Positions 1,337-51,481 of a DNA stretch of 64,000 nucleotides are shown here, one piece after another. Origin of the DNA: Lumbricus terrestris (taxonomy: Eukaryota > Annelida > Clitellata > Crassiclitellata > Lumbricidae); NCBI GenBank assembly GCA_949752735.1, contig OX457037.1:20787039-20851038 (forward strand). Reading direction: 5' to 3'. The notes under the pieces are model-generated. The model searched no databases. It was given only the letters and a program-made list of their open reading frames with translations, and was not told the origin of the DNA. Numbering within the stretch: position 1 is the first letter of the stretch; each line of letters opens with the position of its first letter. The position numbers and the translations under genes were made by a program.

Positions 1337-1355
1337 TTTGATTATGCAATAATTT

Positions 1356-6033: not shown

Positions 6034-8781
6034 ATGTCCGTACTACCTACCATCGACGAACAAGTAAATCAAATGTTGCAGCAAAGACTCATTGAACCCT
6101 CCGCTTCCGCTTGGGCCAGCAATGTGGTTATGGTCACGAAGAAAGACGGTACCCCGAGGTTTTGTGTGGACTACCGCGCGGTGAACACTAAAACCCGGAA
6201 GGACGCCTACTCCCTCCCCCTAATAGGCGAAAGTCTCGACGCTTTGGCCGGGGCAAGGTGGTTTAGCACTTTCGACCTCCGTGCGGGTTACCATCAGGTA
6301 GCGGTACATCCAAGAGACCGGCATAAGACGGCTTTCATCACTAGAAGAGGAAGCTTCCAGTTTCGGGTCTTACCATTTGGCCTCTGCAATTCGCCGGCCA
6401 CCTTTTCACGAATGATGAACCTAGTAATGGCTGGACTGAATTTCGAGGTATGTCTCATCTACCTTGACGACATCATTGTTTTCGCCGAAGACCTGGAGAC
6501 GCACCTGAACCGACTAAAACAGGTGCTGGAGCGTCTAGCCAAGGTGGGACTGAAATTGAAACCGTCCAAATGTCATCTGCTACAACGACAAGTACTATTC
6601 CTAGGACATGTGATCAGCGAGCAGGGAATCACGACCGATCCGGAAAAGACAGTTGCTGTGCGGAGCTGGCCGACTCCGAGAAACCTTAAGGAAGTCCGGG
6701 GCTTTATCGGATTGTGCTCGTACTACCGGAAGTTCGTCCCTGACTTCTCTAACATTGCTAAACCGCTGCATGCCCTGACAAGGAAGGGGTGTCGTTTTCT
6801 CTGGTCTGAAGAGTGTGAAATGGCCTTCACCCAGTTGAAGCAACTTCTTATCGAGGCACCAATACTGGCTTTACCATTGGACGACGGAATGTACGTCCTT
6901 GACACTGATGCATCAGGAGAGGCCATAGGAGCTGTTCTATCGCAAATCCAAAGAGGACAAGAACGAGTCATTTGCTATGGAAGCCGCCTCTGTTCGAGAG
7001 CTGAGCAGAATTATGATGTAACGAAAAGAGAGCTTCTCGCAATCGTACATTTCTTAAAGGCCTACCGACAGTATTTGCTGGGGCACCGTTTTCTCCTTCG
7101 AACAGATCATTCGGCGCTTCAATGGTTGAGGAGAACCCCTCTCCCCATCGGACAGCAAGCGCGGTGGCTAGCCATTACAGAAGAGTTTGAATTTGACATT
7201 CAGCACCGGGCAGGGACGGCACATCGAAACGCAGACGCTATGTCCCGCATTCCACCACAAATACAAGCTGTTCGGGAACTGCGAGATTTCTCGGATGGGC
7301 TAACTGGCTTACCAATGGATTGGAACAGGACTGTCATGCGTGACGAGCAAAGAACCGATGCTGATCTGGACTGGGTGATTCAGAAGAAGTTGGACTCAAG
7401 CGATCCGCCTTCTTACGAGGAAGTAAGGAGTCAGAGTGGAGCCGTAAAGAACCTAATCTCCCAATGGCCGCAGTTGGAGTTGAGAGATGAACTGTTGGTA
7501 CGGAAATGGCTGGATGCAGAGGATGGCAACGTCGCTAACTACCAGTTGATTCCACCTCCTAACCGTCGGTTAGCGTTGATTCAGCTGTCCCACGAAGGAA
7601 TAACTGGAGGACACATGGGAATCAAACGAACCTTGTCCCAGTTACAGAAGAGAGCCTACTGGCCCGGGTGGCGAGAGGACGTTCGGATGGCACTGAGGCG
7701 ATGCACGCCTTGCGCCCAATACTTCAGAGGCAAACCGCCCAAGCAAGGTCGACTACAGTCAATGGCTGTAGGAGCGCCCATGGAATGCCTCGGAGTAGAC
7801 ATCACCGGACCGCATCCCACCTCCAGCAAAGGACACCGTTATATCCTGACGGCTGTCGACCACTTCACGCGCTGGGCGGAGGCACATCCGATCCGCAACC
7901 AAGAGGCAGCCACCGTGGCCCGTGTCCTCGTGAAGGAAGTCTTCTGCCGGTTCGGGTGCCCGCGGCAGATTCTGACGGACCAAGGGCCCTGCTTCGAGGC
8001 GGCCTTGTTTCAGGAACTGTGCCGTCTCCTCCAAATCGACAAGATCCGTACCACCCCCTATAAACCGAGCACGAATGGCGCGGTCGAAAGATTTCATCGG
8101 ACCCTGAACGCCCTCCTGGGAAAGGTGGTAGCCCAAAATCAGAAAGACTGGGATGTGCATCTGCCCTACGTCCTGGCCGCCTACCGAGCCAGCGAGAATG
8201 AAAGTACCGGATTCACTCCGAATCGGTTGTTTCTGTCAAGGGAATTGTGCATGCCTATTGATTTAGTGCTTGGGGATGTGCGGGACATGAATACCTTGTT
8301 AAATGTGGATGATTTTGTTGCTAATCAAATTGAAAATGTACAAACCGGTTTTAAAACTGCCAGGAAAGTTATGCAGCGCCAGGCTACCACTTGGAGTGCC
8401 CGCTACAACCTGAGGGTCAAACCGGCTACCTTTGCCATTGGGTCTTGGGTTTGGTATTTCTACCCGAGGCGACGACCCGGGGTAAAGGAGAAATGGAACA
8501 AACCCTATACTGGACCCTACCGAGTTATGGCACAACTGGGTCCTGTCCTGTATAAAATACAGAAGTCGGCCCGATCACAGGTTAAGTTAGTTTATGTCGA
8601 TAAACTAAAACGATACGAAGGAGAAACCCCTAGAGACTGGGAGATGGACCTTATCCCTGACCTGGTTGAACCAGTTGACCTGGAGGTTTTGGCGAATGCC
8701 AATGATTCGGGCGAAGAAGAAGAGGTAGCCCCTTCGAGACCGCGTAGGATCATTGTACCGCCCCGTAGGTATAGAGAATAG
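6034..8781 (+). CDS. pol: Pol: reverse transcriptase, RNase H, integrase
   Basis: 915 residues from the first ATG; the frame is open from 6001, just after the TAA that ends gag-pro, and is in the same register. RT motifs: KKDGTPRFCVDYR, FDLRAGYHQV, PFGLCNSPATF and the catalytic YLDDIIVF near residue 143. RNase H starts near residue 288 (DTDASGEAIGAV). The integrase has an HHCC zinc finger (about 520-560) and a DDE core with D in VDITG (about 589), D in TDQG (about 649) and E in AVERFH (about 685). The C-terminus is basic with no chromodomain seen. All catalytic residues are present and there is no internal stop. Together with the near-identical LTRs this looks recently active, provided the TAA at 5998 is read through or is a private mutation. 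Confidence 0.93.
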   Translation: MSVLPTIDEQVNQMLQQRLIEPSASAWASNVVMVTKKDGTPRFCVDYRAVNTKTRKDAYSLPLIGESLDALAGARWFSTFDLRAGYHQVAVHPRDRHKTAFITRRGSFQFRVLPFGLCNSPATFSRMMNLVMAGLNFEVCLIYLDDIIVFAEDLETHLNRLKQVLERLAKVGLKLKPSKCHLLQRQVLFLGHVISEQGITTDPEKTVAVRSWPTPRNLKEVRGFIGLCSYYRKFVPDFSNIAKPLHALTRKGCRFLWSEECEMAFTQLKQLLIEAPILALPLDDGMYVLDTDASGEAIGAVLSQIQRGQERVICYGSRLCSRAEQNYDVTKRELLAIVHFLKAYRQYLLGHRFLLRTDHSALQWLRRTPLPIGQQARWLAITEEFEFDIQHRAGTAHRNADAMSRIPPQIQAVRELRDFSDGLTGLPMDWNRTVMRDEQRTDADLDWVIQKKLDSSDPPSYEEVRSQSGAVKNLISQWPQLELRDELLVRKWLDAEDGNVANYQLIPPPNRRLALIQLSHEGITGGHMGIKRTLSQLQKRAYWPGWREDVRMALRRCTPCAQYFRGKPPKQGRLQSMAVGAPMECLGVDITGPHPTSSKGHRYILTAVDHFTRWAEAHPIRNQEAATVARVLVKEVFCRFGCPRQILTDQGPCFEAALFQELCRLLQIDKIRTTPYKPSTNGAVERFHRTLNALLGKVVAQNQKDWDVHLPYVLAAYRASENESTGFTPNRLFLSRELCMPIDLVLGDVRDMNTLLNVDDFVANQIENVQTGFKTARKVMQRQATTWSARYNLRVKPATFAIGSWVWYFYPRRRPGVKEKWNKPYTGPYRVMAQLGPVLYKIQKSARSQVKLVYVDKLKRYEGETPRDWEMDLIPDLVEPVDLEVLANANDSGEEEEVAPSRPRRIIVPPRRYRE

Positions 8782-11297
8782 CGTAATGTAATGTAATGTG
8801 ATATGATAGGGTAGTCCTGTCGCGTAATGGCGATAAGTAGGTGAATAGAGAATAGAGTCTTCTCTGCTTTAGTTGTGTTTTGATGATATTATATGTGGCC
8901 TTGAGATTTAGGTTTACATTTTTCTTTTAATGTGCTTTGATACATTGTGCTTTCTTACTGTGTAAAAATGTGAAAGTCGATTACAGTAATGAAGTGTAAT
9001 ATGATGATATAGGTTAAGTGAGAATGCATAGCTTTATTAGTGTGAAATGTAGCTTAAGTATTTCAGATTATATGTGTGTCCTCTGATGATAAAAATAACT
9101 ATGTAGATGAGATGAATAATAAAGAAATGAGATAAATAAGAGATAACCAGGTAAAGATACTTGTACTTGTCTCGTGTAGAATCCTTCCAGGTCGTGTAAT
9201 GGCGACGAGAGTAAGCGATGGGAGAATAGAATCTTCTCTGTTTTATTTGCTTTTTGATGAGATGTAACTATGTGATGTGGGAATACATTGTTTTATTTTC
9301 TTGTGCATAAATGCTGTGCTTTCTGATGTAAGCTAGTTGGCTATAACCATGTGAAAATGTTTACAGTAAGTGTTTAGTAGCAGTTACAAGGAAGTAATGT
9401 AGAGTGATGTGATGCTAATGCTTAAAGAGTAGTCCTTTAGTTTGAAATAAAAAGGGTAGTTTTAAACTCAGTTTAAATATTTGAATTGGTTCTTGTTGCC
9501 ACGAAGAAGGGCAGATTTTGAGCTTGTATGTTATTTGCATAATAATGGTTGCAAGTTAAAAAGTTATAATTATAATATGCTATGGTAGAAGTAATTAGCA
9601 TTCTGCAGGGTGATTGAAGGATAACCTTGTGTGATTGGTTGAATGAGTAACTTGGTGATGATGTGGTGCTAGATTGTGTAGTAAGGTTGAGTAGAGCACC
9701 CAATTGTAAGCATCGCCCTGAGAGTTAGTGAGTAAGTTGGATTATAGACTTAGAGGCAGAATCACTGTAGCAGGCAGTGGAGATTGCATGCAATGGTGAA
9801 GCTGTGCCTGTGGATGAATTCGTCCAGTCTTAGACTACTTCCTGCAAGGGTTGTAATGTAATAGACTATTATAGGATATGGGAATAAGTCCTTTATGCCT
9901 TGGGTATGCTTAACTGAGCAGTAATTCCTTCTTCGATCCGGGTAGCTAAGCCTTGATGTAATAAGGTATGGTATGCATGTGGTATACATTAGTGGCCTAG
10001 GTTTATGATCTGACGTTGCTTCATCTCTGTAGTAGTGGCTTAGTGTAGAAAGAATGAGTGCCTTTAAAACACAGCTTAAGTTTTAAGTTGCTGTATATGT
10101 TTGGCTTGGTGATTGGGTGAACATTGGTTTGGGATTGCGGTAGAAATAGATTGTTTGTGGAATCAAACATTGTCTAAGAGGTAGCGTAAGGTAGTATGAA
10201 TGAGAGTGACTGAGTGTGCTTGAAGTTGCATTTCTTATTTTGTAGCTTTTGATGACAAGTTTAAATGGAATATGGCCTCAGACTCTTGTGTACCTGAGAT
10301 TTAGTATAGTATCATAACCATAAAATTGTGTAAGGTATTGATTCTTCTATAGCGATTCTTGTTGGTTGTGATTATTATATGTGAAATTCTAATAATGCTA
10401 CTGCTGTATAAAAATGTAATAACGGATTAATATAAGATTTGGCGCCGGAACATGACTACATGTGTTAAGAGGACTTTCTTCATCGCTAGAGTTCCGTGCA
10501 ATTGCTGGAAGTAGTGTGTAGTTAAGTTTCATTGTGGATAATTGCTAAAAGTAGTTAAGCTAAGTGATTGTAATTATGTGTAGTTAATGGGGTTACGTTA
10601 AACGATTACTCTTTCTCTTACAGACCGAAACAATCAGTTGGCATGGAAGATAAGATTGGCATCTTGGATTTGATATCCCCGTGGGTAGGAAGTCATGAGG
10701 AGGCGATAGTTATAACGCTGTTTACTATTAAGAAGGCCGCATGGTTCTGGCCATTCCTCGTTTAACGCTATCGAGTTGATTGTAAGCAGTAATGTTACCG
10801 CTTAAATGTACCAGGCTCCTATAATTTAGTATCAAGGGATCTAGCATATAACACTAGTCGTGAAATGAAGATATGATTTAAATTGGTTATTTTATGTGGA
10901 CTATACAATTGTGTTACTGAGTTGTCTTGGAAATGCTATGTCCTGCATTGCTATGTTTTACCTTTCCGAGATATCATTGCTATATGATGTATGTAATCTG
11001 ATGGCAGGTATTAATGATAAAAACTGTGACAGTTTATGTGAATGAGGAGATTAGTAAGACTTTGTTGGTCAGTGTGAAGACCTCGATTAGCTAAGAGCTG
11101 TTGTTGGGCATATGTGAACTCTTATGACTGACTAATAATCAGTCATTGTACAAATTTGTATGCAAATTGATGCAACTTCTGAGACATTGTACGCTGTAGC
11201 ATGCTAGATGATATACCGTACTATGTATCCGGTTCGAGCTCCGAAGTATTATTAAATTTACCAGGGTACTGGTAAATTTAAGAGTAAGTTGTGGGGG
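8782..11297 (+). other. Long non-coding 3' region of the LTR element
   Basis: About 2.5 kb between pol and the 3' LTR with no plus-strand frame of note and no envelope-like gene. It contains a diverged internal duplication: 8815-9000 and about 9190-9380 share an ordered set of words (GTAATGGCGA, AGTCTTCTCTG or AATCTTCTCTG, TTTTTGATGA, TGTGCTTTC). A TATAAAAATG followed by TGGCGCCGGAAC near 10407-10450 resembles a promoter plus primer site but stands alone. Confidence 0.6.
11289..11297 (+). promoter_or_regulatory. Candidate polypurine tract
   Basis: TTGTGGGGG lies immediately before the 3' LTR, the position of the plus-strand primer. It is short and not purely purine, so the call is by position. 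Confidence 0.4.
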
Positions 11298-13210: not shown

Positions 13211-15842
13211 TGTCGCGTGACAGAGTCTCCCCCCTAAAAGTCTCTCCCCGGAGACTCTATTTCGAAATAGATTCTCCCCCCGGAGGATCTGTTTCAGAAT
13301 AGATTCGCCCCCCGGAGACTTTGTTCTGAAATAAAGTCTCCGGGGGGAGAGAATATTTCATCCCCTGTCGAAACAAAGTCTCCCCCGGGGAGACTTTATT
13401 TCAACGCTCGATTTAATAGAGTCGCACCATATTAATCTATACCAAAATATGTCTGAAAGTTGTCCGTCTGTTTGAATATTATTTTGAAACAATTTGCAAA
13501 ACGTTCTCTGGCGAATTTGTATGTAAACGCGATTATTTTCAACTCACAATTCACTTCAATACTCGAGATACAATTTTTTAAACATTCGATGTGGTAATTA
13601 TTACCGCAAAATTAAGACGCTCTTTCACCGTTAAAGCCTATCACGGCGCCATTGGTGCTGATATCATCTCGGGTCTAAGAATGGGTTTAAGCGGAATCAC
13701 AATAATAATTTTTAAAATGATAGTATGAATGGATCTCCGCAAAATAAGAAAAAATAATGACAATAATCTTGAATAATAAATATTGTCTCGTAAATGGACA
13801 TTTAAAGAGCGCTCCTCGCCGTATGAACTACTCAGAGGCGATCTCGGTGCATAGAACACCGGAGAAACGATTTTAAGTGAAACTATTTCAAGCAGCGTGT
13901 AGACAAAGAGGTTACCCATACAATAAATTTGCCCGTGGGGGAGTGGAAGTCATTCAAAGCAGGGGTACGGTCATATTTTTATAAATATTATCGGTTAGTC
14001 AAAATTCAATTTCTATTTCATCAAGAGTTATTTTCGTCAATCCAGCTTCTATTTCATCAGGAATTATTTTTATGATTTAATCAAGAAATGCTTCAAATAA
14101 TCAACCCAGCTTTGATTTAATGAAGAATTCTTTTCATCCATCCACTTTATATATCACCAAGCCCTGTTTTCATCAACACAGTAGGCTACAGATTTACCAT
14201 AGACGGTAGACCTTCAATGTCTTAACCACTGTCAAGTGTCAACTAAAGTAGGCCTACCTGATTGAAACCATAGTATTATTTAGTGACGTAGGCCTAAACT
14301 AGGCCTTCGGGAATGGAAACATGGAGTTAGGCTTATTTTAACAACGTATACCGTAACTTGCTAGCAGTGAAAGTCTCCGAAAGGTTATAAAAGGATGATT
14401 CATCATTTATTATTCTTTATTTCCTGTGTATTAGGCCTATAACATATCGCTTAACCTGAGTTTTTACTTCTAGAAATTATTTGCGGTAAAATAGAAATTG
14501 ACTAATAAATAAAATTTCGATAATATATCGCTTTAGTGTTCTAAATTATTTTCCTCGCGCAGCAATATTGGGACTTTTCTTACCTTGGCATGAAAACGTT
14601 TAATCAATTCAGCTTCTATTTGAACAATAGGCCTAATTGCATTTTAACGATCGATACAACTTCTATTTAAAAAACTATTTTTTATGAATCTAGCTCCAAT
14701 CGAAGCAAAAACTATTTATTGATCTCACTACTACTTAGGTGAAAATACTTTCACCAATCCGACTCATGAATCTATTTAGCAGGAATTCTTCTCGTCAATC
14801 CATGCAATGGTGATTAATTTAGAACGCTAAAGTGATACATTTATTGTAATAGGCTAATTACCAAGAATTCTTGCTTAAATAAAATGGTTTGATGGAGGCA
14901 ATTCTTGCTTAAATTGAGGTTGGATTGATGAAAATAGTTCTTTCCTAAATGAAAATTCCAATGACGAGAAAATTTAATAACCTAGGCCTACTCACTTACA
15001 GAGTAAGCTTAAAAATGTACCAATGGCGTAATTGTAGCAGTTATAGGACCCCTGGGAAATCGGGCCACTTATGTAAACTACCCATGATTCGGATTAATAA
15101 AATTATAGACTAACGCCTGACTAATTAATTGGATCCACGGGTTTCTATACTGCAGTCTATTTGAGCGATATTGCTATTTGCCATATTGCTTATAGTCAGT
15201 CAGTCTTCGGGATAACCGTATCGTAGGCCTAATAAATCCGTTAAGATATCTAGGTCTAATTAAGCAGTAATAAACTTGAACGAATAGCCATAAGAGAATC
15301 AGCGTCGAGCTAATTAGTAGCTAACTGGCATAAACAATACAATCTTTTTCAATAATTAGCCTACAGTTAGGCGGAACTTAGGCCTAATTGTAGGCCTATA
15401 TGAATTACAAATCACATGATCGCTTAGTAAGCCTTTGTAAATATAGCAACCAGTTAATGTAGGCCTATGCCTATGTGCATGTAGGGCAGTCTCTCCGCTG
15501 CGCTTTAATGGTGTTAGGCCTATAACTATGCTACAATTACACCAAATGGCAGGGCCTATAAAGCATTTAAGCTTACTTCATAAGAGTCTTATTTTAATTC
15601 AAATGTATTAATGTCCAAATCCAATACCACAAATGGACACAAAAGTAATTTATTTAAGAAAATATACACTTTAAATCCGGAAATATAGGGGGGGGGATTT
15701 TTAATAGGGGGAGACTTTGTATCGTAGAGGGGGAGACTTTATTTCAACGGGGGAGACTTTGTTCCGATACAGAGTCTCCCCCGGAGACTCTGTATCAGCA
15801 AGGGGGAGACTCTGTTTCGGGGGGAGACTTTATTTCGTGACA
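13211..15842. mobile_element. Non-autonomous DNA transposon, CCGG target, G-rich arrayed ends
   Basis: A 2632 bp insertion between the N-terminal and middle parts of the ATPase gene, flanked by CCGG at 13207-13210 and 15843-15846. The interrupted coding frame requires only one CCGG, so this is a real 4 bp target duplication. Ends are TGTCGCGTGACA and TTTCGTGACA. Both subterminal regions are arrays of a word like GGGGGAGACTTTATTTCG in inverted arrangement (13220-13400 and 15688-15840). The interior has no gene. It holds degenerate 35 bp repeats (ATCCAGCTTCTATTT type) at 13985-14170 and 14600-14810, with the opposite orientation near 14885-14960. A smaller relative is at 34115-34526. Confidence 0.8.
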
Positions 15843-15846
15843 CCGG

Positions 15847-15987
15847 CCTTAGTAATAGATTAAGAAGAAGCGTTGTTTTGCCGCACGCCGATTTCCCTAT
15901 TATCAGCCCCCTTATACTTTTGGGTAGCAAAGGATTATTAAATCTTTTCGAAAGCGCAATGCCCCAACTCAGATCTTTGATATCCAT
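15847..15987 (-). pseudogene. Polinton packaging ATPase, N-terminal piece
   Basis: An ATG on minus at 15987 starts MDIKDLSWGIALSKRF and runs to a clear Walker A loop (GKSACGKTT) and NLLLRP, then hits the CCGG element. The start is supported by the very short divergent gap to the phospholipase-like gene (16016). The rest of the gene is at 12711-13206 and 1356-1507. Confidence 0.85.
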
Positions 15988-16015
15988 TTTAAATATATTT
16001 ATATTAAAAAGCGAA
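15988..16015. promoter_or_regulatory. Divergent AT-rich promoter gap
   Basis: Only 28 bp, nearly all A/T, separate the minus-strand ATPase start from the plus-strand phospholipase-like gene start. A shared bidirectional promoter is inferred; no individual box is assigned. Confidence 0.35.
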
Positions 16016-16573
16016 ATGTATTGCGTAAAGTGTAAAAAACAGACCGAAACGAGAGATGTACGGAACGTCGTAGCTAATAATGGTAGATCTATGCTTAGAG
16101 GCGTTTGCGTTGTATGTGGGAAAACAAAAACTCAATTCGTGAAGGCGTCTACCGTTGTGCAAGGCGGAGATGTAGTTGGTTTATTGAATGCAGCTACTAG
16201 TAACATTAAGCTACCTTGGGCCAAGTTCCCCGGTGAGATGCATTTACCAGGCCATCAGTTTACCGGTCCGGGTACTAGGCTAGATTTGAGACTGAATCCA
16301 GATGGGACTCCTAAAGAGTGGAGTAAACCTGTGGATAGGGTAGATAACGCCGCGTATCACCACGATTTGGCTTACGATCAACATGCTGATACGGCTTCTA
16401 GGAATATTGCTGATAGAGTAATGCTAAATGATTTGAACAACATTCCTAATCCTAGCTTGCGGGAACGTATAGAGAGAGCATTCGTAAAACCCATCTTGTC
16501 AGCTAAAACGAGCCTTGGTTTGGGTTTACCTTCAAAAAACGGCAAAGTTGTGGGGAGGAAGAAAAAACGCTAA
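16016..16573 (+). CDS. Polinton PX-like protein: zinc ribbon plus phospholipase A2-like domain
   Basis: 185 residues from the ATG at 16016, chosen because MYCVKCKK opens the zinc ribbon directly. Residues 1-45 hold two CXXC pairs (CVKC, CVVC). Residues about 75-150 match the parvovirus-VP1-type phospholipase A2 fold, with the calcium-loop element GPGT and the catalytic HD pair in YHHDLAYD. The C-terminus is strongly basic (GRKKKR). In virus-like elements such a domain is thought to breach endosomal membranes during entry; here that is inferred from the family. The frame is intact. It is divergently paired with the ATPase and followed at once by the integrase. Confidence 0.85.
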   Translation: MYCVKCKKQTETRDVRNVVANNGRSMLRGVCVVCGKTKTQFVKASTVVQGGDVVGLLNAATSNIKLPWAKFPGEMHLPGHQFTGPGTRLDLRLNPDGTPKEWSKPVDRVDNAAYHHDLAYDQHADTASRNIADRVMLNDLNNIPNPSLRERIERAFVKPILSAKTSLGLGLPSKNGKVVGRKKKR

Positions 16574-16599
16574 AGTGGACGGATGAACTGGCTAATGAA

Positions 16600-17484
16600 T
16601 TGCATAGACCAGTAGTACGACATTTTAGAAAGAGAAAGGTGTACGTTAGTGGGATAGATGAGATATGGGCTGCCGATTTAGTCGATATGCAGGCCTTCGC
16701 GAAAGATAACGATGGTGCGAAATACTTGTTAACCGTTATAGATGTGTTTTCTAAGTACGGTTGGATCGTACCATTGAATGATAAGAGCGGGAAATCAACG
16801 GCTAGTGGCTTCATGAAGATACTCGAGGGCGGACGAAAGCCTGTTAAATTATGGGTTGACAAGGGAAAAGAATTTTATAACAAAGACGTAAAGAATTTGG
16901 TTGAGTTGTACTCTACTGAAAATGAAGAAAAATCTTGCGTCGTTGAGAGATGGAACCGAACAATGCGAGAGAAAATGTTCAAGTACTTTACTGCTAATTC
17001 AACGAGAAGGTATATCGATATATTAGATGAAATGGTGGGTAATTATAACAATACAAGACATTCTTCCATTAAAATGACACCCACTAAGGCTAGTATGAAA
17101 GTGAATGAAAAGGTTGTATTTATGAATTTATACGGTAAAGAGATTTCGCAACCTATTTTACCAAAGTTTTCAATCGGTGATAAGGTCAGAATAACTAAGA
17201 AGAAGAACATTTTTGAGAAGGGATATACACCTAGATGGACGGAAGAAGTTTTTACAGTATCCCAGATTCAATACACAAATCCGTCAACTTATAAGATTAC
17301 TGATTGTAATGGAGAGGAAATACAGGGCTCATTTTATGAACAGGAGCTACAGAAGACAACTCAGGAAATTTTTAGAATAAAACAGATTATTAGAAAACGC
17401 GGGAAGAAATCTCTCGTAAAATGGTTAGGATATCCGGAGTCTTTTAATTCGTGGGTAGATAATGAAAACTTAGTGGTTATGTGA
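16600..17484 (+). CDS. int: Polinton integrase with C-terminal chromodomain
   Basis: A retrovirus-like integrase. The DDE core shows D in WAADLVDM, D in WVDKGKEF and E in CVVERWNRTMREK. An SH3-like stretch follows, and the end (RIKQIIRKRGKKSLVKWLGYPESFNSWVDNENLV) is a chromodomain. The given start is a TTG; the frame is open from about 16506, overlapping the previous gene in the -1 register, and no good ATG precedes the core. The usual N-terminal region before the LHRPVV-type block is missing. The N-terminus is therefore either deleted or supplied by another mechanism. No stop occurs in the core. It sits at the right end of the Polinton as is normal for the family. Confidence 0.85.
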   Translation: MHRPVVRHFRKRKVYVSGIDEIWAADLVDMQAFAKDNDGAKYLLTVIDVFSKYGWIVPLNDKSGKSTASGFMKILEGGRKPVKLWVDKGKEFYNKDVKNLVELYSTENEEKSCVVERWNRTMREKMFKYFTANSTRRYIDILDEMVGNYNNTRHSSIKMTPTKASMKVNEKVVFMNLYGKEISQPILPKFSIGDKVRITKKKNIFEKGYTPRWTEEVFTVSQIQYTNPSTYKITDCNGEEIQGSFYEQELQKTTQEIFRIKQIIRKRGKKSLVKWLGYPESFNSWVDNENLVVM

Positions 17485-23352: not shown

Positions 23353-23680
23353 AATCCATTAGGTGTGCGTGCCACTGCGTGGTTCTTCTAGGCTTTATAC
23401 CACGACATAATTTTATCATGACATTGTATTATACATGCCATAGCCTACATGATAATATAATATAATGCAATATACCGGTTTTACAATGAAAATGTTTTAA
23501 ATCTCTCAGATGTAGGTTAACATTAGCAAAATTAACATTCATTCATTCATTCAAGAATTTATATTGCGGTTCTTCAAGGCGACTACTCAGAAGCGCTCCC
23601 GACTCTCGCACGGCAAAAAACGACAGTTTTGAGTTTAATTTTTTTAAATGTTTCAGTAATAACCACAGCAAGTAGACGTA

Positions 23681-24035
23681 AGTAGTAAATGTATGACAGA
23701 CTAAAAACATCAAAGGGGCCCGGAGTTGGAACATCAAAGGCCCGGAGTTGAAACATCAGAGGGTCCGGAGTTGAAACATCAAAGGCCGAAAGTTGAAACA
23801 TCAAAGGCCGAAAGTTGGAACACTAATGCTTGTATGACTCATCGATAATTGGCTGACATCATCAGCGCGTGCTACAGTCGCCACCCACAAATGGGTGGAG
23901 GGCCCAGTGTTTTATGAATCGACAAACTTGACTCATATGGGAGACTCCCACCCCCAACCCCACGCATGCTTCGTCAGCTGATTATAACCATCGACTGCAG
24001 CAGCCCGTGTTTTATGAATCGCCAAACTTGACTCA
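23681..24035. repeat. Left terminal inverted repeat with 22 bp iterons
   Basis: About 350 bp, matching the complement of 32393 down to about 32000. After the first 27 bases come five tandem copies of a unit of about 22 bp (ACATCAAAGGCCCGGAGTTG type), then a unique block and 1.3 copies of the 100 bp unit found in three copies on the right. The arms differ at scattered positions and by one iteron. Confidence 0.9.
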
Positions 24036-24110
24036 TTATTTGACTGCTTTATATGAGATGATGCTTGGAATTTCCCAATTCTATTTCTTATGATTGTGCA
24101 ATACTTGTAT

Positions 24111-24118
24111 TATAAAAG
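24111..24118 (+). promoter_or_regulatory. TATA box of the PC4-like gene
   Basis: TATAAAAG, 84 bp upstream of the proposed ATG at 24195, just inside the left inverted repeat. Confidence 0.6.
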
Positions 24119-24194
24119 AGCCATTTGAACAGACTGGAACCATTTCTATTTCATTTTCGATGCCGGCATATTCGCCACTTACTACGACGAAAGA

Positions 24195-24870
24195 TGTATG
24201 CAGCACGAACTCTCGTACCAATTCCAGTGAGTATTATAGAATTTTCTTTAAACTTTGTATTGAAGAACTTATTTCATATTGAAGAACATGTATAAAGAAA
24301 GATTTGACCGTCTATTTGCAATATAACTCAAAATTCTGCTCTTCTTTTGTGCATCTGTAGCTCGCAGAATTCAAAGAGGCTATTGGCAACAATCGGTATC
24401 TCACAGCCAACCACTACAAGAATGAGCTAATGGTGCATATACGCGAGTATGTACAACATGGAAGCAAATCATATCCCACAAAGAAGGGAGTATCCTTCAA
24501 CAAATCATCTTGGGCGAGATTTCGGGCTTGCCTGGACGAATTGGACAGAAATGTACAACTGCTGAAGGCGAATCAACCTGTTGACGTCTACCAACATCTC
24601 GGAGGTCGTTATTATGCATCAATTTCAAAGGACTTCAGATGTGTGAATATTCGACGATACTTTCTACCACCAAACACCACCAAGGAGAGACCAACCCGCA
24701 GCGGCATCGCTCTACGTCTGGACGAATGGGACAACCTTCTTCTCAAAATTGATCAACTCCACGAACAATTGCCAGAACTTAAAAACGCTATGCCATGTTA
24801 TAGCTCTTTAGATCATTCAAATCAATTGGGATTTGTAGCATGCACTCAATGCAATCCTTTCGGACTTTAA
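24195..24870 (+). CDS. PC4/Sub1-like single-strand DNA-binding protein, two exons
   Basis: Proposed exons 24195-24227 and 24361-24870 (phase 0; donor GTGAGT, acceptor CTGTAG) give 180 residues. Two PC4-type domains are visible. One at about residues 13-73 has HIREYV, YPTKKGVSFNKSSW; one at about 90-145 has NIRRYF, PTRSGIALRLDEWDNL. PC4/Sub1 proteins bind single-stranded DNA and act in transcription and replication. In a protein-primed replicon, which exposes long single strands by displacement, such a protein could coat them; that is an inference. The first exon (11 codons) is chosen because it is the only one that joins in frame; the second exon is firm. An AATAAA at 24886-24891 follows the stop. 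It converges on the polymerase gene. Confidence 0.75.
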
Positions 24871-24885
24871 ATCTAAGCATTTCTG

Positions 24886-24891
24886 AATAAA
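24886..24891 (+). terminator. Polyadenylation signal of the PC4-like gene
   Basis: AATAAA 15 bp after the stop codon. A minus-strand AATAAA (TTTATT at 24914-24919) for the convergent polymerase transcript lies within 30 bp, so the two transcripts probably end close together. Confidence 0.55.
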
Positions 24892-25124
24892 CTTGTGTGA
24901 TGTGGACCATGGCTTTTATTTGTAACATAATGAAGTAAAGAAAAGACACAGAGATCATTTTTAAATTCTTTTTTTCTTTCACAAAATATCTTTACACACA
25001 TGCAAACATGCAAATTATGAGTGTCTCTTTCTCTATTACTATAAATCGCAAGATAAAATATAATATAGTCGAATCTAATATATACATTTAAATCAAAACA
25101 TACCAGCTCACACAGTATATAAAA

Positions 25125-28100
25125 TCAATTGTCTTTATATAATGCAATATCGACATGTCCATACGCAAACGAATCCGACGAATTCAGTAAGAAACGTTTA
25201 TCATCGTACGGAGAAAGGGCAATCTTTCGCAACTCAACAGTGTGTAGGGTATGCTTTTTACTCTGAATCACACAGAATTTGGAGCTAGTGGGCTTCTCTT
25301 CAAAAATACAGGCTCGGTATTCGGCATGCCTGATGCACTTCTTGACGAATCCCCTCTTTATCCCCTTTGCAGTCTTCTTTTCTTTCTCTCCAGCCAACAG
25401 CAAACTATACATTTTCGATCTTAGCCCACAAAATTCGATCACAGCGTCCCCATTGCATTCGTCTTTAAATTTCCCAATGACCTTTGCGTTGGATCGGCTA
25501 TGTAGAAAGTGCCCACAGGGGTAGTCTGAGGTGTCGTATTCATCTAAATTGCGTTGCATGTCTGTGTATATGTCGTGTGTGAAAATATGGTAGCAGAGGC
25601 TGTCTGTATCTGTAAAAAGGAGTTTGCAGGCAGATCCATAAATGGGAATTATATGCTGATAGTGGAACTCGTACATTTTTAATTTTGAAATGTCCAAGAT
25701 GCACATACCAGCATATAGGGGCTTGTTTAGATAAACGTTAGAATTTGTTAATTTTATGACGGTCAAATCTTCATTTATTATATTGTACGACTCGAAATTT
25801 GGACGGGCCACGAAGCGTTTGGCCCGTTTCGCACTAGTTACAAGTTTCACCGCCAGATGTTTTCTGTTGTTTTGCATTGTTTTGCCGTAAATTGAGTTGT
25901 TCATTAATTTGAAGAGGTCTTTTTCAAAGGAAAATTTGGCAACCTGCCGTTTGGAAGTGTTGAAGTCGATATATGGCTTCAGCCATCGACTTTGGCGAAA
26001 CTCGAGGATTTTATGAATTTTGGCCAATTTCATACCCATTTTCAGGTAGAACTGTAAATTTCTGTAATGAACGACGTACCGGGTCTTTGCCATGAGATTG
26101 GGCACCAACTTTGTGACACCGGTACCGATTTTAGCCGAAATTTTCTGAGAAACAGATTTTGCGTAAGGAGATATCATGTCCGGTCGTATGTGCAATGTCT
26201 CTGGTGCAAGGGGATAGTCATTGTGGTCGTCGTGGAGATGAGAAGGATAGTCCAAGTCCACGTCCAAAATATACCCCAAATCGTCGTCTGTCGATTTAGA
26301 GTCCAAGTCAAAGTCGTCAATTTCGTCTTCGTCCAAAAATCTGAATTTACCCGTCGGGAGCGGTTCGGACATGGCGTAGCCGTAGAGGTTATTGCAATCC
26401 AAATACATTATATAGCTGTTTGGAATGTTCGGGTCGTATCCTTGGGCGAGATACGGATTGTTCGCCTTTGCATATCGATTTGATATCATGGAAACGCCAC
26501 CTCTCATGCCTCGCTCCACAAACAGGTAAATGTCCGGGTCTGTGATAAGGTCCAAATTTACATTTGTCATGCGCAAGCACGCGTCGAAGCTAAGTCCAGG
26601 GCTGCTGTAGTAATGTAGCGGGTCCAATTTGTAAAAGTCCAAGGACATACCACGAAAAGATTCGAAAACATCGGCCAGTAAAATGACGACTGTCTTCAAA
26701 TACAGATCGTGGTAGTCCTGCATAGTCGTCATGTCGAAAGTCTGCCAAATTTTCTGCGCATAGTCGTAGTCGTCCTGGGAAATGTCCTCGTCCGTCAGTT
26801 TGCTAAAGAAGCAGCCTTTGGGAGGCAGAGTCCTTTCGGTCATTCTGCAGGCTGAAGTCATGTATTCGTAGGGAAATACGCCCTTACGCAAAAGCAATTT
26901 GTACTCGGTCGGAAAAAGACGACGCAAATGTTTGAATTTGGAGTCATCCTCTTTAGATACATTTTTAACCAACACGTCCAAACCGCAGTTTAGAAATTGG
27001 AGGGAGTCCAAAAATCTGATGTTGTTAATTTCGAAGGAGAGATATTTCTCCATGTTGGTTGCTATCACATTTATTTCCTGCTCCGCAAACTCCTTTGTCA
27101 TATTTTTGAGGATAAGGTGAGAGTCATAGCCTTTGAGGTTATGGAAGATGACAGGAAGAAGATAGTTTGCAGATTTGCCTTTCTGAAATTTTGTGGGCTT
27201 TCGAAATTTCAGTTTGAGATTGCAAGGAGAGCAGAGTGCAGAAACAAAGCTACCAGTCATATGACAGTGGTGTCGAACTTTGTTGGCGCCAGAAAGAGCG
27301 ATAGAGCAAGAAGGACAAGATTTGCAAGAATGAAAATCCATCCACTGCTGCTGGGTCAGCGGCTTCATGGGTGTGTTGGTGGCCAAAATTTTATTTATTC
27401 GCGTTTGCTCAGATTTTATATGTTTGAAGAAATGCTGCATCAAATCAGGACCTGAGTAAGTGTATGGTGTAGCGTCATTTAAGTGCGGAAAAGAGGATAC
27501 TGTGAGGCAGCAGAATCCGCTGGGGGTATGTGTGTCTAGAATTTTGGTCGCGCCGCTGGGGGCGGCCGAGGCGTTTGGAGCCAGGTAGCTTTCAAAGTCG
27601 CTGTATATCACGTATGGAATGGGCATTTCGTGCTGAGTGTTTGTGAATGAGAGGTTGGAATTTTCTGCGGTCGGGTAGCGCACGGACTGCAAGCCGTGCT
27701 TGCCGCATTCATCTATGTGCGCATTTTTCCCAGCAGCAGTGGTGAAGCAGTGCAAACAGTAAGGACAAGGAAAAGAGCGGCCATCATGCGAATTTCTTTT
27801 GGCCAAGAGAGCAGAAAGGTTGCGAATTGTAATGTAGTGGCGTTTAGCGCCATCGTCGAGAAGAAGAAGATTTACAATATGTTTTCTACCCCTGTGAGCA
27901 CTTGCATATAGGCGCGTAAATGTCTTGTCATCGGGATTTGAGTACATGACATTGATTGAATATTCAGCGTTCATGGATTCGAAGAGTGGGATTTGTTCGA
28001 TGGTCATTGGTAAGGTCAGCCCCTTAGTTTCAAGTTCATCCAGATATGGGATATAGTGACTTACGCGCTGTGGATTGGCAGTTTTGAAATGCGTCACAGA

Positions 28101-31100
28101 TAAGATGCTATAGAGGAAACACTTGTCATCGTCATTTTGGATATTCAACGTTGCATGTTTCCCAACCAAATGTCGTGGGGTCGGAATATAGCTAGATGCT
28201 CCAATTGGATCGTATATGGCATTAGCCAATTTAAAATTGACCACGCTGCTAACCACCCACCCCGAATTTTGAGTTGCGAAAGTATCTACCAATTCGTCAA
28301 TTCTTTGGATGGCGTCTTGCACTTGAGTTGATATCTGCGATGGATGAAGCAGTGTAGCTGGTACGGACTTGAAGTAGGCTGTAGTTCTAGTTTCGCCTTC
28401 GGAGCACTCTCGTTGAAATTCGACATCTACGGCCACATACCATTTCACCGGCCTAAAGAATCATTGCAGAAGTTTATTAATTTTCTGAATATAATGCTCA
28501 TATTGCATATAGTTTGAAATTTATAGAGGGAAAGTGTAAATGTCAGCAAGATCAAAAATTAAGGTTCGCGTGTGGAAAGAAGAATTGACCAAGTTTGCAA
28601 GAATTTGTTTAAGACAGTGTCTATATTACAAATGTGCCAGCATAATTTTGGAGAGAAAATTCTACTAATTCCAAACAAGTGCCAATTGTCAATTCTCTAC
28701 TTACAAATAAAATATTAAAATTTGTGTATAATGCAAACTCACCCTTCATCTCTGACTGTGTCCTCCAAAGCATTGATCATCTGTTGAGCATCTCCCACCA
28801 ACATGGCATGGATATCTGCGGTGTCCGGAGTTGGAAAGGAGATGTCCATAAAGGCATTCTGTGCGGAAGTACGTAGCCCTGGATTCCTCTCTTTCTTGAT
28901 GCATGTAACGCACACATCTTGTCCAGCACGGAAGAAGCGTGAGGCCCTCCGACATTTGCATCGTATGCATTCTTGGCGCTGCAGACAGGTTTGACAAAGC
29001 CCATTCACCAAGTTCGTCGTCTTGTATGCATGACAAGAGTCACATCGACCTACAGACACACAGAAAATTGTATTAATTTCAAACAATACAATGCGCATGA
29101 AGGCTGGATATAAAAGGCTACAAACATAAATTGCGTTGTGTGTGTGTGTGCGTGCGTGCGTGTGTGTGTGTAAGATGAGTGCAAAAGGAAGACACTTACT
29201 CGAAGTTCCGGGTTCTGTCGGCGCTGCCGCCATGTCGATGCTGCTAGCCGCCGCCGCGCTGCTGCCGCCGGCATTGTTCGTCACCGCACCCGTCGCCGCC
29301 GCCGCCGCCGCTGGGGCCCCTTCTCGCGGGGTTTTCAGATCTGCAATATACAGAAATTTATGTAGACATATCGAAGTGGGATATCCTAGAAAAAAATTTG
29401 TCTCAGATGAGCACTATAACAACTACTTAATTCTGATTTTGATACCACTGTCGTACACTACTTTCGAAAAAATTTCAAGTCACACGCAATATAATAAAAA
29501 TTTGTATTTGGTTAGAGAGTAAGGCCTAACAGTTTGTGTGCGTTTGATTGCGCGTATCACAACTATTAAATTCAATAAAGATAGATTTTTGTAAATGTCG
29601 AGTATGACTGCCGAAAATGAAGAGAGTAACTTACGCGATGGCGCGAACTGATTGTCTCTTGTTGTTCCTTCGCCAGCCGATTCCTTGAAAGTAATGATGC
29701 CCGTGCCATCAGACTCTGCAAGAATTAAAAGAAAAACAATTAATATTATGCATAAATTGTTATAATTTTAAAAAAAGCATGCATATATTTTTGAAAGTTC
29801 TACCGATTGTGAGATAAATTAAAATTCACTTACTGAATTTCTTTTCCTTAAGCTTCGGGTTTTCGTCAAGCGATGCAATTCGTCTTTTCGCTAAAAATAT
29901 ACAAATCAAAAGTTTCATTTATTGATGCAAGTCAATCACTATTTAAATTTTTGACAATTACAAGAAACAATTTTTTTAAAATACTGCGTTTCAAAATGTA
30001 TAAATGGCTAAGAGCATTACCTGGCATTTTTCCCCGTTCCTGTTTTCTTGATTCTTTCTTTCTTGCTTCATCTGCCTCTATTTGCAGCACATATCCCAAC
30101 AGTTCCTGATCGCTCATAGGCCCCCAAAGTTCGGCTAGTTCAGCCTCTTCTGCAGCTCTCATCAAGGCTGCATCTTCTGCGTCCAACATCGCAGCTGCAA
30201 TATTATAAGAAATTTTTAAAAATAGGTCAGAAGACATTAAAGACGAGGTGAAAAAATATTATTCGTAGAAGTTGTCGCGCGTAATAATATAATAATCTTA
30301 TTAAATGCTGTAAAATCAGAAATGTGTAAAATGATTCGTGTGGGCGTGAATAAAGGTTCCTATGTACTTACTTGCTGAAGCCGAATTTGTTGCTGCTGAA
30401 GAGGAAGCTGCTGGAAATTCTAATCGCTCTGGATTCGGATCTATCTGTTCCACATCATTGCATTGCTTAGTTTCTGTAAGAGAGAAAATTATGCATATAT
30501 TAAAGTTTTAAAAGAAACACCACACAGAAAATATTATAGTATTAACATAACACATCGCGGTTAGCATCACAATTTCATTAGAATTCGCTAATTCGCACGC
30601 TATCACATTGTCATAGGGCTATGCTTTGCCATATGCAAAAGCCGTCAATATGTATAAAGTCTGTTTGAGTAGCTTCACACAATACTGTTGAGTTCTTTCA
30701 CAGTTGCATTGATCAAAGTACTATCATGTGTAAAAGAAAAAGCTTTTATGAGTTTGCAATATATGTAGTATCACTAACTTGTTCGCTTAACGGTGTGATG
30801 TTCATCTGTTTCATTAAGGTCGCGCAGTCTTTCTATAATATAAAAATAAGATTCGCTATAAAGTTTTATAATATAATAATTAAAATGGCATATATTTTTA
30901 AAGAAAAAAATTATTACTTTTATCCAAACTGTTATGAAGCTATGATTTTAAAAAGCAATGAAAAATAATATAAAAGATTCATACTCAGTTCACGTATTCT
31001 GGCAGCAAGTTCCGCCTCAGTCTTTTTTAGTTGAGAGATCTCCGCTCGAAGTTTATAAACTGCAAAAAAAAATAAATATAAGATAAATGTAGCGTGTGTT

Positions 31101-31271
31101 TAAAGTGTACGTCTAATATTCTACAATATCTTGATTATTCGAACCCTGCATGTTATTTCAAAGTGCATTAAGAGTATAGATTATAAATCTCCCAAGGCCG
31201 TGCAAGATTTAATCTAAATAAGAGTGATTAGAAGTTATGTAAAGAACTATAGTATACTAACTCGTCTCCAT
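25125..31271 (-). CDS. polB: Protein-primed family B DNA polymerase (Polinton type), nine exons
   Basis: Exons on minus: 31271-31262, 31059-30985, 30473-30372, 30194-30021, 29890-29834, 29715-29635, 29340-29200, 29049-28743, 28452-25125. All junctions are GT-AG. The total is 4275 nt, exactly 1425 codons, with no internal stop, giving 1424 residues. The N-terminus is a short coiled coil (exon 2), acidic and alanine-rich linkers (exons 3-7), and a cysteine-rich domain with four CXXC pairs (exon 8). The last exon holds a C2H2-like finger, the ExoI motif YSDFESYL (about 599), an HNH/endonuclease-VII-like zinc block (about 692-726), ExoII HNLKGYDSH (about 752), motif A YLDCNNLYGYAM (about 999), motif B NNSIYGK (about 1166) and motif C FTDTDS (about 1263). 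All catalytic aspartates are present. It would copy the linear element from a terminal protein primer. Intron 7 contains a TG microsatellite. Confidence 0.92.
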
Positions 31272-31389
31272 AGTTGCAGTAAACGATCAAATCGTCAGAT
31301 TTCTTGAAGTCTGATTCCGACGTGATGTTGTAGAAAGCGTGCGTAGAAGCTGGATCAGCGAGGTTGAAGGTAGCACTGGCTGATATTCT

Positions 31390-31508
31390 GGAAAGCTCGT
31401 GTAGAAGTTGTTCCCCGCGAGGTTGAAGTTGGAACCGTCTGATGCTGGCGAAAGCTCGTGTAGAAGTCGTTCTCCGCGAGGTTGAAGTTGGCGCCGTCTG
31501 ATGCTGGC
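31390..31508 (-). repeat. Tandem unit of about 59 bp in the polymerase leader
   Basis: Two full copies of a unit containing AGCTCGTGTAGAAGT, CCGCGAGGTTGAAGTTGG and CCGTCTGATGCTGGCG, with a partial third copy toward 31330, between the TATA box and the start codon of polB. This implies a repeated 5' leader or a regulatory array. Confidence 0.7.
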
Positions 31509-31540
31509 GAAATCATGTGATTAAGCGCTGTTTGGACTCC

Positions 31541-31550
31541 TCTTTTTATA
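31541..31550 (-). promoter_or_regulatory. TATA box of polB
   Basis: Read on minus: TATAAAAAGA, about 270 bp upstream of the first ATG (31271). The start of transcription would fall near 31515, which places the 59 bp repeats in the leader. Confidence 0.6.
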
Positions 31551-31879
31551 GCCGTGTGGCTGTAGATTGCAATCTGATGGCGCAATAGTATACGTGTTTA
31601 TACTCTTAAAAGTGTGTTTGCGTGCCTGTCTGGGTGTTTGCGAATTTCAATGTGTGGTGCAATAGGCGTAAAAACCCGAGCTGCGTGGTTTTCAAGCTTA
31701 TACGGTCGATCGTAGGTATTCCCTAAGATAGCCGTTTAAGAATAGTCATCTGTGTTGGGCTGTCAATGTGGTTGGACGTCTAAGTAAGCCTGCTTTACTG
31801 TCTGTATATATGTGTTGCACAATTCTTACTGTTGCATGTCGCAATGGCAGCGCTTGGGGAAAATACCCATGACTAAGCA

Positions 31880-32393
31880 TCGACTGTGGCTGCTGCTGCC
31901 TCCGATGGCGATAATCAGCTGACGAAGCATGCGTGGGGTTGGGGGTGGGGGTCTCCCATATGAGTCAAGTTTGTCGATTCATAAAACACGGGCTGCTGCA
32001 GGCGATGGTTATAATCAGCTGACGAAGCATGCGTGGGGTTGGGGGTGGGGGTCTCCCATATGAGTCAAGTTTGTCGATTCATAAAACACGGGCTGCTGCA
32101 GGCGATGGTTATAATCAGCTGACGAAGCATGCGTGGGGTTGGGGGTGGGGGTCTCCCATATGAGCCAAGTTTGTCGATTCATAAAACACTGGGCCCTCCA
32201 CCCATTTGTGGGTCTTGCCTGTAGCACGCGCTGATGATGTCAGCCAATTAACTATGAGTCATACACACGTTGGTGTTCCAACTTTCGGCCTTTGGTGTTT
32301 CAACTCCGGACCCTCTGATGTTTCAACTCCGGGCCTTTGATGTTCCAACTCCGGGCCCCTTTGATGTTTTTAGTCTGTCATACATTTACTACT
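31880..32393. repeat. Right terminal inverted repeat with 100 bp tandem units
   Basis: The outer 330 bp or so is the complement of the left repeat, with four instead of five 22 bp iterons. Inward lie three tandem copies of a 100 bp unit (exact period seen at 32001 and 32101; GCGATGGTTATAATCAGCTG...). The left arm carries only about 1.3 units, so the arms are unequal by roughly 170 bp. Confidence 0.88.
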
Positions 32394-32399
32394 GACGTA

Positions 32400-49503: not shown

Positions 49504-49926
49504 AGTAGTGGTAGAACGTTTCTTTAAAACCCTCACCACACCCCGCGATTCCTGGACCCCTCGACTTCTGGACCGTCTGCATTCCTGGACCGTATGGACT
49601 TCTGGACCGTCTGCATTTCTGGACCGTCTGCATTTCTGGACCGTCCGTGATTGTATGACATCAGCTATAATGGACACTGTCACAAACGGGCAGCAGACCC
49701 CTCCCCCACCTCCCCCCACAATGATTCGTCAGCACATTTTGCTTGTACAGCAGCAGCTGTAACCCACACCCCTCCAGGCAGTAGTAGATGCTTACCTCAG
49801 CTTGATGATATCATCTCGCGATTGTATGACATCAGCTGTAATGGCCACTCTCACAAACGGGCGGCAGACCCCTCCCCCACCTCCCCCACAATGATTCGTC
49901 AGCACATTTTGCTTGTACAGCAGCAG
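49504..49926. repeat. Iterons and a 180 bp duplication at the left end
   Basis: 49545-49645 holds tandem copies of a unit of about 17 bp (TTCTGGACCGTCTGCAT). A block of about 110 bp (GATTGTATGACATCAGC... to GCTTGTACAGCAGCAG) occurs at about 49647-49758 and again at about 49823-49925. Confidence 0.8.
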
Positions 49927-50107
49927 CAGCTGTTACAGCTGCTTAGTCATCATGCTTGCTCAGCATATTTTTATTTATAGAACATACACTGCTATATCAT
50001 TGCATGCACTATAAGACACGTAATATTTTAAACTATAAGAGTGATTCTCTTTTCATTAGTAGACATTTCATATTGAAACCTTCTAAAGAGCGACAACAGC
50101 GGTTGAT

Positions 50108-50440
50108 ATGTGTCCTAACATTACTAAATGCGAAATGGATGTTTGTGGAAACTACAGATGGGAATGCGTAATGTGTCAAGGCGAAGATGATGATGATGAT
50201 GATGCGAGCGTTCACATTGAAGATGAAAACGTTGTAAAGTATAGTACTATAAAACTTAAATCGGAGAATGAAAGACTGAAGAAATCTGTTATTTGTATAT
50301 TCTGTAAAGAAAAGCAAGTGCAGGCCTTATCTCTTCCGTGTGCGCATGTGAATATGTGCGACCCTTGTGCGGACATTGCAACACACTGCCCCTCGTGCGG
50401 CGAGCGCATCCTTGGAACTGTCAGAATATATCTTGTATAA
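50108..50440 (+). CDS. RING-finger protein of the Polinton
   Basis: 110 residues. An acidic run (EDDDDDDD) is near residue 27. A C3HC4 RING is at about residues 63-100: CIFC, CAHVNMC, C and CPSC, ending GTVRIYL, close to the RING of IAP-type ubiquitin ligases. Such genes occur in Polintons and related viruses, presumably acting on host defence or degradation; the target is unknown. The frame is intact. It overlaps the open frame of the ATPase at 50434-50440. Confidence 0.8.
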   Translation: MCPNITKCEMDVCGNYRWECVMCQGEDDDDDDASVHIEDENVVKYSTIKLKSENERLKKSVICIFCKEKQVQALSLPCAHVNMCDPCADIATHCPSCGERILGTVRIYLV

Positions 50441-50493
50441 AAACAACTCTGTACTTCAAAAGGTATTTACTTTTTAAATTGGATCCAACGTGG

Positions 50494-51093
50494 ATGCATC
50501 CATTCTCTGCAATAATCAGCGGACCCAGCGGATGTGGAAAAACCAACTTCACTTTACGATTTATAGATCATTTAGACTATATGGTGAAACCTGCAATAGA
50601 AAAAATTATCTGGTGTTTCGGTATATACCAAGAAATCTTTGATAAATACGCCCATGTACAATTTCACGAAGGTCTGCCCGACCTGGCTATTTTCGATGGC
50701 AAGCAAAAGACTCTGCTCATTTTAGACGATCTTATGAGTGAAACTGACGAGAGGGTTACCAAATTGTTTACAAAGATTAGTCATCATATGAACGTTTCTA
50801 TACTCTACCTGACGCAGAATCTTTTCTACAGCGGAAAGCACTCAAGAACAATCAGGTTGAATGCGCATTACTTTGTATTCTTCAAAAATGTTAGAGACAG
50901 CACGCAGGTTTCAATATTAGCACGACAGATGTTTCCCGGCAAGGCAAATTTCATGATAGAAGCCTTCCAAGATGCTACTATGGCGCCTTTCGGATATCTT
51001 TTGGTCGATCTGAGGCCGGAAAGTGATGAGCGGTGCCGCATAAGGACAAACATTTTCCCAGGCGAGACGCATTATGTTTATGTAAGGAAATGA
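50494..51093 (+). CDS. Polinton packaging ATPase
   Basis: 199 residues from the ATG at 50494. Walker A is GPSGCGKTN near residue 9, Walker B is LLILDDL near 72, and a sensor-like LYLTQNLF lies near 107. This is the A32-like branch of FtsK/HerA ATPases that pack DNA into capsids. The conserved-looking FKLDPTW just upstream is in the same open frame (from about 50434) but has no ATG, so the true start is unclear. It may have been upstream and lost, or be joined by splicing. No internal stop. Confidence 0.85.
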   Translation: MHPFSAIISGPSGCGKTNFTLRFIDHLDYMVKPAIEKIIWCFGIYQEIFDKYAHVQFHEGLPDLAIFDGKQKTLLILDDLMSETDERVTKLFTKISHHMNVSILYLTQNLFYSGKHSRTIRLNAHYFVFFKNVRDSTQVSILARQMFPGKANFMIEAFQDATMAPFGYLLVDLRPESDERCRIRTNIFPGETHYVYVRK

Positions 51094-51134
51094 ATATAAA
51101 CTCCTACTCGCGCCACTTCTCTCATTCAACCAAA

Positions 51135-51383: not shown

Positions 51384-51481
51384 TGCAGACAGGCGGTTTC
51401 TTAGGAGCACTACTGACCCTGTACTTTCTTTACTGGGGACATTGCTGAGTAATAAAATCTAATAGGGAGCATACGAAGAAA

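Follow-up and report, generated by a model that had tools for sequence, protein, structure and literature searches.

An 8,713-bp element that resembles a Polinton (Maverick) lies within a 64-kb window (C2:20787039-20851038) of the genome of Lumbricus terrestris, the window being the whole stretch of DNA analysed. It spans positions 23681–32393 of the window and carries two genes arranged tail-to-tail, for a predicted protein-primed DNA polymerase (PolB) and a PC4-like protein. The analysis suggests that this element is most likely the replication segment (segment A) of a segmented Polinton, rather than a satellite of complete Polintons. Different gene sets were found under the same terminal sequences, with three classes of element in each of three lineages. 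With the segments taken together, PolB, integrase, ATPase, protease and a capsid protein (the latter assigned from a sub-threshold match) are all present under one set of ends. The reading draws on lineage-specific ends that are shared by complementary gene sets, on perfect target site duplications (TSDs) and on purifying selection.

Three classes of element under one set of ends

The host genome (1.056 Gb, 331 contigs), whose size, multi-exon genes and retroelements point to a eukaryote, was searched with the first 520 bp of the element (105 matches, with the best 40 of 141 candidates scored) and with its first 100 bp (41 matches, best 40 of 76 scored). The best 40 of 76–170 candidates were scored in all of the end searches, and in the other genome searches the best 150 of 211 for PC4, 95 of 875 for the capsid protein (MCP) and 104 of 1358 for PolB; the results below apply to these best-scored candidates. 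The matches make up 24 paired-end elements with the ends of the window element (lineage 1). Twenty of these, chosen by their ends alone when their contents were not yet known, were read along with the window copy. All 20 were flanked by a perfect 6-bp TSD, on which ground assembly error was rejected, and every end read AGTAGT with the exception of the right end of one copy (L031), which has one change.

These 20 copies fell into three classes. Six were of class A, encoding PolB and PC4 as the window element does (8.55–9.34 kb with the latter included), five were of class B (8.25–8.44 kb), without PolB, and nine were of class C (7.49–8.74 kb), without PolB and integrase. Polymerase and integrase were found together in none of the 20. 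Interior identity was 97–98% within class A, 98–99% within class B and 80–96% within class C, with the interiors of different classes having 0–7% of their length in common, mostly 0–2%. Within the window element no Polinton gene apart from PolB and PC4 was recognised by Pfam and query searches. An rve integrase was detected neither there nor in any of the six class A copies, and the same elements gave no match to queries for the ATPase and for the capsid of a distant virus (L001, see below). Class A copies of lineages 2–4 gave no match to the protease and capsid queries of class B.

The initial annotation had described an element with only these two genes, had argued against simple debris and had asked whether many copies share this layout. 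The window element has no integrase or capsid gene of its own and, with the six further class A copies, their closely similar interiors and perfect TSDs, represents a repeated family with this layout rather than debris. It had also considered that most copies with these termini might be full Polintons; none of the 21 copies read, the window copy included, was of this kind (best 40 scored candidates). The integrase which it suggested looking for under these ends does occur, in the five class B copies, and is there without a polymerase.

In one class B copy (L043) all genes lie on one strand. Four of their products matched Pfam above the cut-off: an adenain-like protease (C5), an integrase, by both its rve core and its chromodomain, an A32-type ATPase and a RING protein. 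A further product, of 441 codons, was taken as the capsid protein from a double-jelly-roll match below threshold. Three more open frames, for which Pfam gives no support, are presumed to encode virion proteins, and two small conserved frames are also present. All ten queries derived from this copy were matched in the remaining four class B copies of lineage 1 and in one copy each of lineages 2 and 3. Class B elements measured 8.2–9.7 kb in 17 of 19 paired cases and 11.7 and 15.5 kb in the other two.

Class C elements have a single small two-exon gene, present in eight of the nine lineage-1 copies with exon pieces 96–99% identical to those of L029 and in class C elements of lineages 2 and 3 at 34–50% identity. 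Its product is acidic by inspection, and Pfam gave nothing above cut-off for the exon pieces. In the three copies examined for it the gene is flanked by long inverted repeats: in L029 with mirrored frames, in L051 with arms of 501 bp and more, and in L052 with arms of 3.3 kb at 99% identity (88–3431 and 6179–9507), which could form a giant hairpin.

The same division in two other lineages

As the PC4 and capsid matches in the genome fell in identity steps, the ends of one diverged class A element and of one diverged class B element were used as probes, and these define lineages 2 and 3, respectively. The ends of the three lineages have only a core of 32–44 bp in common, which is a candidate recognition site. 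Within each lineage the ends agree among classes A, B and C despite this divergence. Reading confirmed PolB with PC4, the class B set and class C under both of the new ends (lineage 2: A, L045/L047; B, L054; C, L051; lineage 3: A, L053; B, L046/L048/L049; C, L052), and the 6-bp TSDs were perfect in all six of these elements.

Ends lying 2–16.5 kb apart were also paired by script. This gave 56 paired-end elements for the three lineages, of which 21 held PC4, 19 the capsid gene, 16 neither and none both. By lineage, the PC4, MCP and neither counts were 8, 5 and 11 among 24 elements (lineage 1), 6, 5 and 3 among 14 (lineage 2) and 7, 9 and 2 among 18 (lineage 3), with no element holding both in any of them. 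A scored PolB place was also present in seven of the eight PC4 elements of lineage 1, five of six in lineage 2 and six of seven in lineage 3. None of the scored PC4 places lay within 20 kb of a scored MCP place, nor did any of the 104 scored PolB places; a separate pairing of 126 of the 150 scored PC4 places with all 95 scored MCP places likewise gave no pair within 15 kb.

The ratio of nonsynonymous to synonymous divergence (dN/dS) was determined between lineages 1–3 using one copy per lineage, as were the dS comparisons given below. It was 0.07 for PolB, 0.03–0.06 for MCP, 0.12–0.17 for the integrase, 0.14–0.29 for PC4 and 0.15–0.29 for exon 2 of the class C gene, the last on 63–94 codons with saturated dS. 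Judged by these sequence comparisons, the genes of all three classes are under purifying selection, and the low values between lineages indicate that the proteins were conserved even as the ends changed so far as to be hardly recognisable.

Weighing of the explanations

The initial annotation had suggested a satellite that uses the integrase and possibly the capsids of other Polintons. Elements with an integrase and the same ends do exist, which supports one part of this; those read have no polymerase, and no complete helper with matching ends was found among the 20 read copies or the 56 paired-end elements (best-scored candidates). The dependence therefore looks mutual. An origin as simple debris, or by one internal deletion in a Polinton, is most improbable. 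Vertebrate Maverick copies are mostly degraded according to the available part of PMC8097293, but the window element belongs to a repeated family with perfect TSDs, class A interiors that are 97–98% identical and frames that are for the most part open; a single deletion is contradicted by the copies read and was rejected.

There is a small chance that the three classes arose through complementary internal deletions from a full-length Polinton of about 17 kb, extant or recent, that supplies all functions in trans. Classes A and B sum to about 17 kb, near the mean of 16.9 kb given for intact vertebrate Mavericks in the accessible text of PMC8097293, and with only the best candidates scored in the end searches an uncommon full-length element under these ends might have escaped notice. 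However, both gene sets occurred together in no read copy and in no paired-end element. The same division is seen in three lineages that differ in their ends and whose A and B genes have diverged by 0.2–1.0 at synonymous sites, and class C, in its interior and its gene, has hardly any DNA in common with A or B. A slightly less probable arrangement is an asymmetric parasitism, in which B would be autonomous by means of host or other polymerases while A and C hitch-hike on its integrase, as satellites of an incomplete helper. The presence of the integrase in B only, and the existence of a fourth lineage in which no B partner was found, would fit this. It is difficult to reconcile with a PolB constrained about as strongly as the capsid protein, with the similar numbers of A and B among the paired elements, and with the absence of a PolB match from the B elements read in all three lineages.

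A number of observations weigh against the segmented reading itself, as does the restriction of the genome searches to the best candidates, among which a full-length element may have been overlooked. The capsid assignment in class B depends on the sub-threshold match and on gene order. Individual copies are imperfect: the exon-10 PolB frame is open over its full length in four of the six other class A copies, the integrase match of L042 (class B) is split in two pieces, one virion-like frame of L046 (class B, lineage 3) is interrupted by about 2.4 kb, and L041 (class C) lacks the class C gene. Five unread pairs have no assigned gene (two each in lineages 1 and 2, one in lineage 3), and no PC4 was located within 4 kb of 64 of the 104 scored PolB places. 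Lineage 4 is represented by an 8,512-bp element (C6:37961259-37969770, from L055 position 2260 to L057 position 771; TSD ATGGTA) that encodes PolB with no PC4 and no class B match inside. PolB is present in eight of 16 paired elements of this lineage, the other eight being unread, and a comparison by eye placed no scored MCP match in any of the 16. It follows that PC4 is not universal to PolB elements, and the tandem PC4-like protein accompanies PolB in three of the four lineages examined.

The genes also disagree on how the lineages group. PolB dS places lineages 1 and 2 closest (0.72 against 0.93–0.98), whereas lineages 2 and 3 are closest by integrase dS (0.31 against 0.39–0.40) and by MCP dN (0.019 against 0.037–0.040). 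Even within class A, synonymous divergence between lineages 1 and 2 is much lower for PC4 (0.21) than for PolB (0.72). This conflict does not fit strict co-divergence; it may reflect reassortment or recombination, that is, exchange of segments or ends. As exchange is to be expected of segments, it leaves confidence in the segmented reading unchanged.

Proposed mode of propagation

For the fuller proposal of a tripartite segmented Polinton the chances are about even. One segment would serve replication, one would provide capsid and integrase and one would carry a small, perhaps regulatory, gene. The three would replicate, be packaged and integrate as a set that is recognised by the ends of its lineage, with several sets coexisting in the genome and exchanging segments or ends by reassortment. 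Segment A would supply the protein-primed polymerase and, in three of four lineages, the tandem PC4-like protein, and segment B the adenain-like protease, capsid protein, chromodomain integrase and packaging ATPase, while segment C would bring the same ends and, between long inverted repeats, a single small acidic protein encoded by two exons. PolB is suspected to start synthesis at the AGTAG termini, with PC4 coating the displaced strands, and may copy any DNA that bears the ends of its lineage and hence all segments. The class B integrase would then act on the ends and insert each linear product separately, giving the 6-bp duplications, and the segments may be packaged in class B capsids. 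Mutual dependence, replication and integration in trans, the binding of single strands by PC4, any packaging or virions, present activity and what segment C does are all inferred.

Relation to known systems

Polintons have been described as single self-synthesising elements and as possible ancestors of many eukaryotic DNA viruses. The Lumbricus elements share with Polintons/Mavericks (Eupolintoviridae, adintoviruses) the AGT-repeat ends, 6-bp TSD, protein-primed PolB, rve integrase with chromodomain, A32-type ATPase and adenain-like protease. The AGT repeat at vertebrate Maverick ends has been tied to jumping-back in protein-primed replication (PMC8097293, as far as available). In the same source all genes are normally in one element and intact vertebrate copies are intronless, whereas here the elements integrate separately, with the gene set divided among them, and nine introns are predicted in the polymerase gene. 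Nine Polintons without capsid, protease and ATPase genes have been reported, but their loss was read as a step in the transition between virus and transposon, and the available part of that paper mentions no complementary element with the same ends (PMC4028283). The Bidnaviridae can have segmented DNA genomes, with up to twelve segments reported, and an adintovirus-type PolB; they are defined by a parvovirus-type NS1 and capsid (PMC11071296, part available), unlike class B with its adenain-like protease, A32-type ATPase and integrase.

Satellite P4 of phage P2 has its own replication genes and borrows capsids from a helper which is complete by itself. It differs from the present case, in which the partner with integrase and capsid has no polymerase. 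No report of a segmented Polinton was found in the literature covered (titles and abstract openings on PC4, non-autonomy, satellites and segmentation, with few subscription papers), and none is described in the available parts of PMC12721341, PMC12567637 and PMC11521997. If correct, the reading would illustrate the path from a mobile element to a multipartite genome and would give the segmented bidnaviruses a counterpart. It would also account for integrase-less PolB elements that surveys of single elements would class as degraded. With several lineages present in the same genome, each under its own ends, the specificity of the ends and reassortment can be tested by counting.

Features of the window element

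The inverted repeats and perfect GACGTA duplication of the initial annotation were confirmed (Table 1). Between 23681–24036 and 32393–32060, 319 of 334 ungapped positions are identical with one 22-nt gap, and the first 100 bp or so of the two ends are almost identical. The left end contains 22-bp repeats (23716–23827) and the core that is partly conserved in the ends of the other lineages. The terminal 21-mer (up to three mismatches) occurs in the window only at the two ends of the element, with a mean of 0.00 in 100 shuffles.

Table 1. Features of the window element and of a class B remnant, given as positions in the window
Feature	Position	Strand	Remarks
Left TSD, GACGTA	23675–23680		Perfect match to right TSD
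Left terminal inverted repeat	23681–24036	+	Starts AGTAGT (tandem AGT)
TATA-like box, TATAAAAG	24111–24118	+	Before PC4-like gene; placed by eye, putative
PC4-like gene, probable exon 1	24160–24226	+	GT-AG intron up to 24367; placed by eye, putative
PC4-like gene, exon 2	24368–24870	+	Tandem PC4-like protein, predicted single-stranded DNA-binding protein
PolB exon 10	25125–28452	-	Exonuclease and polymerase domains; YLDCNNLYG, TDTDS and DFES, which we take to be PolB motifs
PolB exon 9	28743–29049	-	Cysteine-rich N-terminal domain
PolB exons 2–8	29200–31059	-	31059–30985, 30832–30779, 30473–30372, 30194–30021, 29890–29834, 29715–29635, 29340–29200
PolB probable start, ATG GAG ACG A|gt	31262–31271	-	Placed by eye, putative
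PolB TATAAA	31545–31550	-	Upstream of PolB; followed by three 59-bp repeats at 31355–31519
Right terminal inverted repeat	31892–32393	-	Extra 100-bp tandem copies at 31892–32191
Right TSD, GACGTA	32394–32399		Perfect match to left TSD
R2, class B segment remnant	49863–52525	+	RING, A32-type ATPase, two small conserved genes, cut-off integrase

The PolB gene comprises ten exons on the minus strand. Exons 2–9, examined separately, each have a stop-free frame, and their phases are consistent at GT-AG borders once exons 1 and 4 are extended by one base, as was done by eye; exon 10 is open over 1,111 codons. The hand-summed exons give about 1,440 residues, close to the intact polymerase of 1,424 residues described initially. 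Exon 10 matched 697 proteins, the nearest named one among the matches listed being the PolB of Parasteatoda house spider adintovirus (44%), and an unnamed Argopecten protein matched at 46%. The protein is homologous over its full length to adintovirus PolB and is predicted to be of the protein-primed kind. The only PDB match obtained with the PolB profile was dismissed as a chance zinc-finger match.

The PC4-like protein was matched by Pfam PC4 in two stretches (E = 2.5e-20) and by PC4 in a profile search of PDB (1.5e-12). Its AlphaFold model is of high confidence (pLDDT 93.2, pTM 0.87), and in Foldseek human PC4 chains were the best matches, in agreement with the sequence profile, at E of about 2e-3 with none at or below 1e-3 (TM to target 0.80–0.89 for the first five matches). 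It is a predicted single-strand DNA binder. A further PC4-like match in the genome (G000:C5:46520597; 95%, residues 57–169) lies within an open frame of 1,798 codons and is possibly a repeat or fusion.

Other database matches and Polinton remnants in the window

A PC4 search of genome_contigs gave no match. In viral_contigs, PolB and PC4 queries found only one distant capsid-bearing virus (L001, 36%), and the 21-bp end repeat found nothing. Fifteen contigs from bacterial metagenome-assembled genomes with distant PolB relatives, together with L001, contained no convincing PC4 (best E 0.016); besides L001's own, the ATPase query was matched by five of these 16 contigs (L007, L008, L009, L011 and L016). 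Metagenome relatives of the PC4-like protein (P0121–P0188) sit mainly on contigs of about 0.7–2 kb, which would fit assembled transcripts, and one of them, from a contig of 936 bp, has 98% identity with the window protein.

Both of the Polinton remnants noted initially in the window do exist, R1 at about 12.8–17.5 kb and R2 at 49.86–52.53 kb. The ends of lineages 1–3 were searched for beside both and were not found, nor were ends of R1's own. At 15728–17484, R1 holds a frame that we take to resemble a parvovirus-type phospholipase A2 and an rve-type integrase of another Polinton-like family. Its integrase has 123 matches in the genome (best 123 of 3,720 candidates), 86–94% identical apart from itself and mostly open. 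At 77 of these 123 places no scored PolB or PC4 lay within 20 kb except for the window's own, and the possibility that this integrase serves the window element was set aside. R2 is 85–90% identical to the class B copies and, by its sequence, represents what is left of a class B segment.
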